Positions 34,407 to 39,517 of a stretch of 64,000 nt of DNA are shown here, one piece after another. Location of the stretch: contig JAAEPF010000023.1 in the NCBI GenBank assembly GCA_024222295.1, positions 310,001 to 374,000 of the forward strand, in the 5' to 3' direction. The translations under genes were made by a program, and so were the position numbers. The stretch comes from Actinomycetes bacterium. GTDB lineage: Bacteria > Actinomycetota > Acidimicrobiia > Acidimicrobiales > Microtrichaceae. The notes below the pieces were generated by a model. That model was not told where the DNA came from. It saw only the letters and a list, made by a program, of their open reading frames with translations, and searched no databases. Position 1 is the stretch's first letter, and the number at the start of each line of letters is the position of its first letter.

Positions 34407-34919
34407 TCAGCGGGTGATTGCCGCCACGACCTCGTCGATCACCTGGTCGGCGAGGGCTTCCATCTCTTCGTCGGTGCGGTCCTGGATCGGATGGGGCACG
34501 AACACCCGCGCCGCGTCGATGCCGAGGGCCTTGGCCTGCGTGTCGGCCGCGTCGATGAACTCGGAGGAGGCAATGAACATCGAGGGCACTCCTCGCCGTT
34601 CCAGATCTGCGATGTCATGCAAACTGCACGACGTGCAGCTGCCTCAATCGGCGAGCGCCTCGATCACGGCCTCGCACTGCTGGGCGATGTCGCGGCGCAG
34701 ATCGTCGGGGGCCGGCTTGGTGAACGTCGGCTTGGAGAAGCGCAGGACCTTCGCCCCGCGATCCACGAGGTGACCCTCGATGCGGTCCAGAAGGACGTTG
34801 CCGCGGGCCTTTGTGATGTCGAGCAGGCCCACCGTGCGGCCACTCAGTGACGGCAATCGATCTGACAGTGGCCGATCGGCAGGATTCAGTTCACCTGTGG
34901 GGTCCAGGATCACGTTCAC
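34407..34919 (-). CDS. UGSC-family selenoprotein (in-frame UGA = Sec)
   Basis: A 170-residue protein if the TGA at 34646-34644 is read as selenocysteine. The first 91 residues (starting MNVILDPTGELNPADR, ending CEAVIEALAD) are followed by U92, then GSCTSCSLHDIADLERRG, which is exactly the U-G-S-C motif of the UGSC (seleno)protein family. The frame, spacing and fold-like sequence continue without a break to the stop at 34407. A hairpin lies immediately after the UGA. GTG start overlaps the stop of the thioredoxin-domain gene. A redox role through U92/C95 is inferred; the substrate is unknown. Confidence 0.85.
34624..34638 (-). promoter_or_regulatory. putative bacterial SECIS hairpin
   Basis: Beginning five bases after the UGA, CTGCAC pairs with GTGCAG around a GTC loop (or a wider ACGTCGT loop). 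A short stem with a G-U-containing apical loop just 3' of UGA is the layout of bacterial SECIS elements. The gap between UGA and the loop is on the short side. Confidence 0.55.
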
Positions 34920-36370
34920 TGTCCGACCTCCCTGGTCACTGGTTCGCTGCCGGTCTGTCCCGACACCCAGCCCCCGATGATGCCAGAGAACATGCCCGCT
35001 CCGCCGCCGGCGTGCACGATGAGCAGGCCGGCGGGTCGGAACTTCGGCAGGTCCGCACCCGCGAATTCCGGTGGCATCCCCTCGGCGATTCCATCGGCCC
35101 CCCGAGCCAGTTCGGCTCCGCTGATCGAGAGCAGTGAGTCAAGCTCCTCGCGCAGGCGGGCCTTGCTCCACCCGGCCTCTGCGAATACGCGGGCGTGCTC
35201 GGGCGAAATGACGAGAACAGCGTCGAAAGCGATCGCCAGTTTGGGGTGACCCACCGACCGCAGGCACGCGGCGAAGCTGCGGGCCAGCGACTCGGGCTCG
35301 CGCGAGATCTGGTCGACGATGCCTTGCACGCCGGTGCCTGCGAACAGGGTGACGGCCGAGGTGTCCGGGTCGATGCCCCGCTCGACGGAAAGGGGCTCCC
35401 AAGGAGAGCCTTCCTCGTCCTCCGCGAAGCAGAACGTGAGCTTGCCCGGGTTGCCCATCGCGGCCCGGTCGATACCTCCGGGCAGTCCGCCGCCCACGTT
35501 TCGGATGGTCAACTGCAGCGCCCGCCCGATCGTGGCATTGGCGCGGTTGCCCTGGCCGAGCGCGTTGATGCCGCTGTTCATGTCGAGTTCCCTGCGAGCG
35601 GGGCCGTTGACCACCACGACCGGGCCGGCGAAGTATGTCGTTGCCAGCAAGCCGTGCATGTTGAAGTCGCTGGTGCACGCTGCTTCGAGCGCGGCCAGCA
35701 CAACCGGCATGTACTCGGGCCGACACCCGGCCATGACGGCGTTGATGGCGATCTTCTCGACCGTGCAGTCCACGAGGTCGGGCGGTGCCTGCACGACGAC
35801 GTCGGAGGGGTTGCGTTCGGTTCCGTCGAGCATGGCGAGAACGCGTTCGGGGGTCGGCGGTACCAGCGGCAGGCCATCTGACCAACCCCGGTCGTAAAGG
35901 GCCTCGATGGGGTCCTCGAGCTCCGCTATCTCTACCCGACGGCTGGCGAGACGGTCCCCTTCGTGGCGGACCCTCAGCTCGCCGACACGGGTCGGGTCGA
36001 CCGACATCGACCCACAGCCGGGCCGGAACTCGGGAAGGTCCGCTCCCAGAACCGACAACCCCGTGAACGACTCCCATTCCGGACGGCTCCATCCCGCGAT
36101 CCGGCCTTCCTCGACCCCGTCGACGAACTTGATCAGGGTCGGCACGGTCTCGATGCCGAGCAGGTACGAGTTGTCGAGGTCGGTGTCATCGAGCACGCCG
36201 TCGACCGAGCCTGGGAACAACGGATCGTCCTGGCTCAGCGTGACCAACGAACGCGAACCGGAGATCTCACCGAGAACCGGTTCGACCATCACACAGGTCG
36301 GGCAGTCACGCTTCACCACGGCCACGAACCCGTCCCGGATCAGCTCCGGGTTTGTAGACAAGGTGTTCAC
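34916..36370 (-). CDS. thioredoxin-domain protein, partner of the UGSC selenoprotein
   Basis: A 484-residue cytoplasmic protein. Residues 1-105 form a thioredoxin-like domain with the redox motif KRDCPTCVMVEPVL (C23, C26) and the cis-proline loop GIETVPTLIKF. The remaining 370 residues belong to a conserved domain with DGLPLVPPTPERVLAML, EKIAINAVMAGCRPEYMPVV and a Gly-rich VVVNGPARRELDMNSG. GTG 36370 is preferred as start since the upstream codons have unlike composition. Its stop overlaps the UGSC start, so both proteins are made in step. Probably a dithiol reductant or partner of the Sec residue; the large domain's chemistry is unknown. Confidence 0.7.
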   Translation of the reverse strand: MNTLSTNPELIRDGFVAVVKRDCPTCVMVEPVLGEISGSRSLVTLSQDDPLFPGSVDGVLDDTDLDNSYLLGIETVPTLIKFVDGVEEGRIAGWSRPEWESFTGLSVLGADLPEFRPGCGSMSVDPTRVGELRVRHEGDRLASRRVEIAELEDPIEALYDRGWSDGLPLVPPTPERVLAMLDGTERNPSDVVVQAPPDLVDCTVEKIAINAVMAGCRPEYMPVVLAALEAACTSDFNMHGLLATTYFAGPVVVVNGPARRELDMNSGINALGQGNRANATIGRALQLTIRNVGGGLPGGIDRAAMGNPGKLTFCFAEDEEGSPWEPLSVERGIDPDTSAVTLFAGTGVQGIVDQISREPESLARSFAACLRSVGHPKLAIAFDAVLVISPEHARVFAEAGWSKARLREELDSLLSISGAELARGADGIAEGMPPEFAGADLPKFRPAGLLIVHAGGGAGMFSGIIGGWVSGQTGSEPVTREVGQ

Positions 36371-36603
36371 CGGCGTGATGCTAACGGCCGTTCTGGTCGC
36401 CGCAGTGCGTGCCCGTCCGACCTCGGGCGCGTCTTCCTTGCTTGCCTGCGCGGCAAGTCGTGGACCCTTCACCGTCCGTACCCACCAACCTCTCGAGTTG
36501 GCAGGTGGCCAAGCCCGCCTATTGATTGTGGTGGCAACAAATAGAATGGGGTTTGGAGGGGGGCATCCCCCGGCTCCCCTCCGACGAGCAAGGGAGGCGT
36601 GTC

Positions 36604-37151: not shown

Positions 37152-38015
37152 TCAGGCCTGGACGCCCACCACCGGCTCCGGTTCGACGATCACGAACCCG
37201 CCAGGGGAATACTCGAGCTGGAAGGCCTCACCTGATCCGCGGCCGATCAGAGCACCGGCACTCATGGTCGAACGGACGGTCACCTTCAGGTGCGCAGACC
37301 ACGCAACTGCAGCGTTGGGGTCGACGAGGGTGCGGGCCTCGGTGGTGTCGAGCACCAGTGGCCAGTCCGTGGCGAGGATCAACGTGCCCGGGCCGGTCAG
37401 CCGCACGTTGAACAAGCCGCCGGCCACCATCGCGCCTGCGCCCGCCTTGATGACCTCGATGTCCCAGGTCATCGTCGCATCGAAGCCGAGAAGCGACCGT
37501 GAGTTGATCGACATCGCCTCGCCCTCACCCAGTGAGAGGAAGTGCAGCTTCTCCCCGCCATGGGACACGAACAGTTCGCCAGCCCCCTCGCAGCGCATCA
37601 GCTTGATCCCCTCACTCGTCGCCATGGCCTTCAGCTTGCGCTTCACGCCGGTGGACTCGTACGAGAACGACACATCCCCCTGGTAGGCGATCATCGCTCC
37701 GCGCCTCACCAACAGGGGGGTGGCCGCGAGCCCTGTCACCTTGGCGACGGCGCGGTTCTGTGTGGTGAACCGGCCCGAGGTCTCGGTCTCCTGGTTGTCC
37801 TTGAATAGCGACGACGTCCTGATCGACTCGGGCAGAGTGGAGCTGCCGGCAGCCGATGCGCCTGGCGTTTGGCCGGTCTGGGAAGCCGCATCCGGGGTTC
37901 CTGACACGGAGACACCGTCGCCGGCAGCTGCGTGGGTGTGCTCAGTCCACTGGTTGCCATCCCACCAGCGCAGCATCGACGGATCGTTGGGGTCGGGGTA
38001 CCAGTTGGGCTCCAT
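37152..38015 (-). CDS. DUF2510 plus AIM24-family protein
   Basis: A 287-residue protein. The first 30 residues are a DUF2510 motif (NWYPDPNDPSMLRWWDGNQW); a Ser/Gly/Thr-rich linker follows; the rest is an AIM24-like beta fold (AMIAYQGDVSFSYES, LILATDWPLVLDTTEARTLV, QLEYSPGGFVIVEPEP). The start ATG 38015 is the first residue of the DUF2510 motif. Function unknown; AIM24 proteins are often near membranes. Confidence 0.85.
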   Translation of the reverse strand: MEPNWYPDPNDPSMLRWWDGNQWTEHTHAAAGDGVSVSGTPDAASQTGQTPGASAAGSSTLPESIRTSSLFKDNQETETSGRFTTQNRAVAKVTGLAATPLLVRRGAMIAYQGDVSFSYESTGVKRKLKAMATSEGIKLMRCEGAGELFVSHGGEKLHFLSLGEGEAMSINSRSLLGFDATMTWDIEVIKAGAGAMVAGGLFNVRLTGPGTLILATDWPLVLDTTEARTLVDPNAAVAWSAHLKVTVRSTMSAGALIGRGSGEAFQLEYSPGGFVIVEPEPVVGVQA

Positions 38016-38043
38016 GGCCCAAGTCAACCAGCGATGCGAGGAT

Positions 38044-38937
38044 TCACAACCTGTTGGGCTGGCGACCATTCGTTCCGGCACGCACCCGGGCCATCTCGAA
38101 AGTCGTGCGCGGGCGTTCGCCGAACAACTCCCGGTAGTACCGCGCGAAGTTGCCGGCGTGGTGGAAGCCCTGCCCCTGCGCCGCTTCGGCGACCGGTGTG
38201 AGGTTGCGCAGTATGTCCACGCGCGCCCGGTTGAGTCGCTTGATGGTCATCCACCGCGAGGGCGATATCTCGAGCACGTCGCTGAACGCCTTGTAGAGAG
38301 TCGACCTGGACACGCCCAGGGCTTCCCAGACCGCCTCAGCTGACGTCGGCTCGTGGTCGTTGATGAAGAACAGCGCCTGTTCCACCAACTCGGCTGTTGC
38401 CTGGCCTTCGCGCTTGGGATGCCCCTGCAGCAGCAACCGCTCGACCATCTCGCGTAGTTCTGCCGAGTCGACTTCGACCCTGGCTGTCTGCGAGGCGTCC
38501 AACCGGTCAACACACCACTGGCGGATCTCGTCGAGCGTGTCGAGGTTGCACTCGAGGATCTCGCGCCCGGGTACGGCGCCGAGACCGATCTTCGCGGTGG
38601 AGGTCTCGGTGATCACGATCTCGTCGGTGTGGCCGCGGACCAGGGTGAACCCACGCGCCCCTTTCGGGCACACCACGGCGTCGGAATTGGTAATCGGGAA
38701 TCCGCCCGCCACCGGGACGCAATCGAGGATGCAGGGCAAGCTCAGGCTTCCCTGGGCGGTCACAGTCCACTCCGTGACCACGTTGGCCGTACGGCGGACG
38801 CGCCCGATCGTGAAGTCGGGATGCGCAGCCCAGGTCCACAGCTCGCGAGGCTCGTCGGGTCCGAGCATGCTGACCTCGGAATCGCGGTTGTCGACGTCCT
38901 CGTGGGCGATAGCGCTCTGCACCAGATAGCTGCCCAT
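38044..38937 (-). CDS. AraC-family transcriptional regulator
   Basis: A 297-residue regulator. Residues about 1-190 form a sensor domain of unknown ligand; the C-terminal 100 residues are a double helix-turn-helix (SAEAVWEALGVSRSTLYKAF, then TPVAEAAQGQGFHHAGNFAR YYRELFGERP). The start ATG 38937 lies seven bases after TACCGT (leaderless), which excludes the longer upstream frame. Divergent from the glutathione peroxidase gene, a possible target. Confidence 0.85.
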   Translation of the reverse strand: MGSYLVQSAIAHEDVDNRDSEVSMLGPDEPRELWTWAAHPDFTIGRVRRTANVVTEWTVTAQGSLSLPCILDCVPVAGGFPITNSDAVVCPKGARGFTLVRGHTDEIVITETSTAKIGLGAVPGREILECNLDTLDEIRQWCVDRLDASQTARVEVDSAELREMVERLLLQGHPKREGQATAELVEQALFFINDHEPTSAEAVWEALGVSRSTLYKAFSDVLEISPSRWMTIKRLNRARVDILRNLTPVAEAAQGQGFHHAGNFARYYRELFGERPRTTFEMARVRAGTNGRQPNRL

Positions 38938-38944
38938 GATCGAG

Positions 38945-38950
38945 ACGGTA
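38945..38950 (-). promoter_or_regulatory. -10 box for the AraC-type gene, leaderless
   Basis: TACCGT on the minus strand ends seven bases before ATG 38937. Confidence 0.45.
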
Positions 38951-39017
38951 GTTGCGGCATCTACGGTTTGGCTGTCGCCTCCGTTGAGGTCGCGCCGCAC
39001 GCCCGGCAGGGCGGCAC

Positions 39018-39023
39018 TACCCT
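39018..39023 (+). promoter_or_regulatory. -10 box for the glutathione peroxidase gene, leaderless
   Basis: TACCCT ends eight bases before ATG 39032. Confidence 0.45.
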
Positions 39024-39031
39024 CCGGGACC

Positions 39032-39517
39032 ATGACCGCATATGACGTGGACCTGAAGGCGCTCGATGGCTCGGCCGATGTGATGGCCAACGCGAGAGGC
39101 AAGGTGACGTTGCTCGTCAACGTCGCCTCGAAGTGCGGGCTCACGCCGCAGTACGAGCAGCTCGAGCAGCTCCAGAAGGACTTCGGCGGCGACAAGTTCA
39201 CCGTGCTCGGCGTGCCGTGCAACCAGTTCCTGGAACAGGAGCCCGGCTCCGCCGACGAGATCGCCACCTTCTGTTCCACCACCTACGGAGTCACCTTCCC
39301 GCTGAGCGAGAAGGTAGAGGTCAACGGCGAAGGCCGTCACGCGCTCTACGAGCAGCTGGTGGACACAGCCGACGCCGAGGGCCACACCGGCGACATCAGG
39401 TGGAACTTCGAGAAGTTCCTGATCGGCTCTGACGGCAGCGTCATCACACGCTTCGACCCGACCACTGTGCCCGACGATCCGTCCGTGGTTTCCGCGATCG
39501 AGGCCGCCATCGACTGA
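39032..39517 (+). CDS. glutathione peroxidase family protein (Cys type)
   Basis: A 161-residue thioredoxin-fold peroxidase. The catalytic site is LLVNVASKCGLTPQY (Cys about 35; selenium is not used here), the glutamine motif is GVPCNQFLEQEPG and the tryptophan motif is WNFEKFLIG. Since the organism makes mycothiol, the actual reductant is probably thioredoxin or mycoredoxin. Full length. Confidence 0.93.
   Translation: MTAYDVDLKALDGSADVMANARGKVTLLVNVASKCGLTPQYEQLEQLQKDFGGDKFTVLGVPCNQFLEQEPGSADEIATFCSTTYGVTFPLSEKVEVNGEGRHALYEQLVDTADAEGHTGDIRWNFEKFLIGSDGSVITRFDPTTVPDDPSVVSAIEAAID

Follow-up and report, generated by a model that had tools for sequence, protein, structure and literature searches.

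Selenoproteins of the UGSC family have been known since 2008, when an ocean survey ranked them among the most abundant selenoproteins, proposed for them a thioredoxin-like fold and depicted a fusion of UGSC with a domain called Unknown_1 (PMC2398784, Figure S1A); a 2026 review lists UGSC among the selenoproteins of largely unknown function. Their signature resembles that of GrdB, a subunit of glycine reductase, which likewise carries its selenocysteine (Sec) in a UxxCxxC motif (PMC13188914). Here we describe a UGSC gene in 64,000 nucleotides of an Actinomycetes bacterium of the Microtrichaceae, order Acidimicrobiales (assembly GCA_024222295.1, contig JAAEPF010000023.1, here C23, positions 310,001 to 374,000 of the forward strand; hereafter the window), together with the gene that overlaps its start. 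We hold with high confidence that the internal UGA of this gene is decoded as Sec, as predicted, and that the two genes form a functional pair; the near-constant coupling of UGSC to this unclassified, thioredoxin-containing partner is the new part.

The minus-strand frame that opens with GTG at 34919 and closes with the stop at 34409-34407 holds a single internal TGA (34646-34644), and its start is preceded, at a distance of a few bases, by AGGGAGGT. As a preliminary description of this DNA had stated, the TGA is followed directly by GSCTSCSLHD and the frame then runs intact for 78 residues up to the stop; its assignment of the product to the UGSC family is likewise borne out, as the read-through protein matches Pfam PF24696 over residues 4-169 (E=1e-45, 156.4 bits, cut-off 25) and NCBIfam NF041046 over its whole length (162.6 bits, cut-off 125), that is, on both flanks of the TGA. 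The gene, which is the only strong copy in its genome, is confirmed as a true member of an already catalogued selenoprotein family. The UGSC profile found no significant match among PDB sequences, and no homologue was found in phage records. Elsewhere the family appears to have expanded in places, with five to ten copies, mostly TGA-bearing, in each of four genomes (G012, G059, G100 and G119).

Could the TGA nevertheless be a real stop in a pseudogene, or a cysteine codon that was miscalled? Only one base separates TGA from TGC or TGT, and UGSC copies free of TGA do exist. However, the 80 best homologues, taken from contigs representing one genome per species and 58-69% identical, all carry TGA at the same codon; their frames agree, and none of them ends at the UGA or shifts frame. 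They come mostly from actinobacterial metagenome-assembled genomes (MAGs), other labels being Myxococcota, Gammaproteobacteria, Acidobacteria and Chloroflexi. The recurrence of this TGA in 80 independent assemblies labelled with several phyla refutes this explanation, which is further opposed by a frame that stays open to either side of the codon and by the Sec machinery of the genome, and we consider it exceedingly improbable. In an alignment of 44 sequences, position 92, C95 and C98 are invariant. Three contigs titled Bifidobacterium breve (L056, L062 and L063) look like mislabelled MAGs; actinobacterial MAGs from lake water have UGSC and partner genes near-identical to theirs.

The genes for Sec synthesis and insertion, selA, selB, selC and selD, had been predicted to lie elsewhere in the genome (a 3.76 Mb assembly of 97% completeness), and there they are, in one cluster on contig C17, where tRNA-Sec (66 bits; called tRNA-SeC by ARAGORN), selD (375 bits), selA (419 bits) and selB (273 bits) stand side by side. 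Genome-wide searches returned strong matches for selB, selD and tRNA-Sec only on C17, with selA between them. The accompanying statement that the window itself contains no such machinery was checked in part, and agrees with the single tRNA-Lys that ARAGORN finds there. Across 148 genomes of the order, UGSC occurs in 68, selA in 88 and both in 64 (Fisher p ~1e-16, kinship ignored). Four genomes thus have UGSC without selA: G053 (98% complete) with two UGSC copies, both TGA-free; G001 and G063, with TGA copies, which are 84% and 78% complete; and G018, with a weak UGSC match only, listed without its stop state. The genome of the window also encodes, some 600 bases upstream of selC, a PrdB-like protein with one in-frame TGA (Table 1), likely its second selenoprotein, and relatives with an in-frame TGA occur throughout the order.

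According to the published model, a bacterial Sec insertion sequence (SECIS) has a loop of 3-9 nt with a G in its first two positions, a stem of 4-16 bp, a distance of 16-37 nt from the UGA and a minimum free energy of at most -7.5 (PMC13188914). The stem CTGCAC/GTGCAG, previously noted five bases past the UGA, does exist, but its loop starts 11 bases after the UGA, short of the 16-37 nt of the model, and a better SECIS candidate is available; the stem occupies columns 9-14 and 18-23 counted from the UGA, and among 67 distinct homologues its outer pair is lost in 20 and no two-sided change was found. A hairpin at 34632-34614, mutually exclusive with that stem, falls within all the published limits (Table 1). 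It pairs columns 15-22 with 26-33 around a GUU or GUG loop, and its pair 18-30 is G-C in 45 of the 67 sequences, G-U in 13, A-U in 8 and broken in one, giving one compensatory pair (G-C/A-U); the two outer pairs are missing from 9 and 23 sequences, which leaves six pairs as its secure core. When the window sequence is folded by itself, pair probabilities of about 0.48 and 0.30 for the two stems do not make the choice firm; it is the homologue comparison that decides for 34632-34614. C98 (TGC), S99 (AGT) and D102 (GAC) each keep one codon throughout all 81 sequences, and valine at position 100 is encoded by GTG every time, whereas the synonymous entropy at conserved residues elsewhere averages 1.45 bits and is never below 0.74. 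We do not think that this invariance is an artefact of the homologue search patterns, because these were degenerate back-translations. No Rfam family matches the hairpin.

What, then, is the partner, a gene that the preliminary description did not mention? A homologue of it is present at 79 of the 80 UGSC loci, mostly so close upstream of UGSC that the two overlap or are separated by a few tens of bases. The coupling extends to distant paralogues: of 41 further stretches from UGSC-bearing genomes of the order (a few of which overlap), 40 have the partner C-terminal domain next to the UGSC domain or fused with it, the distant paralogues having this domain with no detectable thioredoxin part. 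Among the fused frames, the one in L132 is a 710-amino-acid (aa) Cys form combining CGSC and DGLP domains with no stop or TGA, and the one in L131 has a single TGA, located in the UGSC motif; both belong to a set of paralogues (L131-L135) with a long frame at the UGSC domain and the partner C-terminal domain just after it, the shared frame having been checked for these two.

The partner begins with a domain bearing CPTC (C57, C60), continues through a linker with PGCGS (C153) and ends in a domain of ~330 aa that starts near WSDGLPLVPPT and is covered by no Pfam or NCBIfam model. By its CxxC motif and its sequence similarity the N-terminal domain is thioredoxin-like: C57 and C60 are conserved in 71 of 71 partners, its best PDB matches are thioredoxin chains (E=2e-4), and TIGR01068 matches 31 of 40 partner members at E<=0.1. 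A fumarase-like fold for the partner was considered and rejected as too weak: its best Foldseek match, a class I fumarate hydratase (PDB 7xky, E=9e-4), has a template-modelling (TM) score of 0.2-0.3 and a root-mean-square deviation of 15, unusable as a fold assignment.

The other neighbours tested from the window do not reappear next to UGSC elsewhere; these include two minus-strand frames upstream of the partner, an AIM24-domain protein with DUF2510 (37152-38081) and an AraC-type regulator (38044-39282). Two open reading frames antiparallel to the partner also matched in the neighbour test, which we take to be its shadows.

The linker cysteine of the partner may mark a second site of Sec use. 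At the position of Cys153 (PG-C-GS), 15 of 74 partner genes have TGA and 59 have TGC or TGT, with no other residue represented, and the 15 (L028:3886, L030:3892, L032-L037, L039, L040, L042-L044, L060 and L075; motif PGUGS) contain no further stop within the matched stretch. A SECIS-like hairpin, GTCGAYCC-CGGGC-GGRTCGAC, follows this TGA at a distance of 20 bases, and the second base of its loop is G. It is paired in 92.5% of cells with one two-sided change, values that shuffles do not distinguish for these 15 related rows; in nine rows a single pair is mismatched (columns 21-31 in five of them, 17-35 in four), and the folding energies are -4.7 kcal/mol for L030, -11.6 for L036 and -13.6 for L028. 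The tree of the 74 partner proteins needs two changes between Sec and Cys, most simply read as a single gain of Sec in an 18-member clade (support 100/99) and a single return to Cys in three rows. In one lineage the partner appears to have turned into a selenoprotein itself. No partner-like family was found in the 119-entry selenoprotein table of the 2026 review, nor did the literature yield anything on the PGUGS motif or on UGSC function. We lean towards regarding the partner as an undescribed Sec/Cys family that, with UGSC, forms a two-subunit enzyme with a thioredoxin domain of its own and two Sec/Cys sites, both catalytic; Sec would have been gained in one actinobacterial clade, inside a pair that already depended on Sec, and one subclade would have gone back to Cys. 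The partner in the window is the Cys form.

Table 1. Positions of the UGSC locus features in the window, and of the PrdB-like gene
Feature	Position	Strand	Details
UGSC-family selenoprotein gene, 170 aa, Sec = residue 92	34407..34919	-	GTG start 34919-34917, TGA stop 34409-34407; PF24696, NF041046
In-frame TGA as Sec (residue 92), first residue of UxxCxxC motif UGSCTSC	34644..34646	-	TGA in 80/80 homologues
Predicted bacterial SECIS hairpin GTCGTGCA-GTT-TGCATGAC	34614..34632	-	19 bases UGA-to-loop, G first in loop (GUU), 8 pairs, -9.1 kcal/mol
Previously noted hairpin CTGCAC/GTGCAG, present, not favoured	34624..34638	-	11 bases UGA-to-loop, -6.5 kcal/mol
Partner gene, up to 518 aa (start codon uncertain)	34916..36472	-	overlaps UGSC start by 4 bases (GTGA)
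Cys153 codon of partner (TGT here; TGA in 15/74 homologues)	36014..36016	-	coordinates computed from residue number
PrdB-like gene with TGA	L154 / L009:5774-6268; G000:C17:245897-246463	+	PVUPLCSRTVC

The 2008 proposal can be taken to mean that the UGSC protein is a stand-alone redox protein of thioredoxin fold, its neighbour being merely co-transcribed. An AlphaFold2 model built from 44 sequences, with Cys in place of Sec, points elsewhere. With a predicted local distance difference test score (pLDDT) of 90, it alternates strands and helices and places Sec92 between strand 84-90 and helix 93-108; its matches in the PDB are Rossmann/flavodoxin-like, lumazine synthase, ArsH and B12-binding folds, with TM-scores of at most about 0.5, and the best 50 include no thioredoxin. 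The predicted model thus disagrees with the thioredoxin-like fold suggested in 2008, and both the partner linkage and the fusions speak against a protein acting alone, which leaves the stand-alone explanation quite unlikely.

We instead favour a two-gene operon. The gene, its Sec codon, the machinery, a SECIS candidate, the gene pair and the fusions are established computationally; catalysis, the electron path and the substrate class are what we infer for the pair, which is most likely a two-subunit selenothiol reductase. SelA, SelB, SelC and SelD from contig C17 would decode the UGA as Sec, directed by the hairpin at 34632-34614, and the Sec would sit at the start of a helix following a strand of a Rossmann/flavodoxin-like domain, within the UxxCxxC motif. 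Its selenolate would attack the substrate, C95 or C98 would resolve the resulting selenenyl-sulphide, and the CPTC thioredoxin-like domain of the partner would re-reduce the UGSC protein, an electron path to which we give even chances; the partner C-terminal domain and Cys153 may help to bind or process the substrate.

Several points weigh against this proposal. The electron path and the substrate are guesses, and the support is computational throughout, from related sequences that are non-independent. The loci share no third gene that would hint at a pathway, the best recurrence being that of flavin reductase, hexapeptide and beta-lactamase-fold proteins, which are found near UGSC in at most 17 of 57 loci. 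The fold match of the partner C-terminal domain, to fumarate hydratase, is poor. Finally, a single pair of the SECIS helix covaries and the stem is mostly invariant, and the constraint imposed by the protein is therefore not fully separable from that on the RNA.

If the partner is indeed a selenoprotein in some genomes, it would be an addition to the 119-entry table; a gene caller that takes UGA only as a stop would truncate the UGSC gene and, where it carries Sec, the partner as well. What the locus contributes to a known family is a corrected SECIS, a partner gene and a second candidate Sec site, and a near-universal partner gives the function of UGSC a testable handle in the form of a complex, a thioredoxin domain and fusions.

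How does the pair compare with what has been described? With the UGSC family (NF041046/PF24696; PMC2398784, PMC13188914) the window gene shares a full-length match, the UGSC motif at the Sec, its size and a downstream bacterial SECIS-like hairpin; no feature sets it apart, and only the modelled fold disagrees with that of 2008. The UGSC/Unknown_1 fusion (PMC2398784) joins a conserved domain to UGSC as in L131 and L132 here, and Unknown_1 may be the partner domain. The UxxCxxC motif, the weak similarity to GrdB of the residues around the Sec (E=6.6e-4) and a profile alignment with PrdB-like proteins that sets Sec on Sec, non-significant though that comparison is by itself (E=0.057, probability 1%), suggest a reductase of the general GrdB/PrdB kind with the partner thioredoxin as electron donor. 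The narrower version of our proposal, in which the pair is a distant GrdB/PrdB-type enzyme that cleaves a small molecule at a C-N or C-X bond, we regard as possible but rather doubtful: the UGSC protein stays far below the family cut-offs (18.7 versus 602 bits for GrdB), and known reductase subunits are not recognised beside it. UGSC has in common with glycine reductase GrdB and D-proline reductase PrdB the UxxC(xxC) Sec motif and a weak profile similarity around the Sec, but it is paired with a thioredoxin-containing partner instead of the known reductase subunits.
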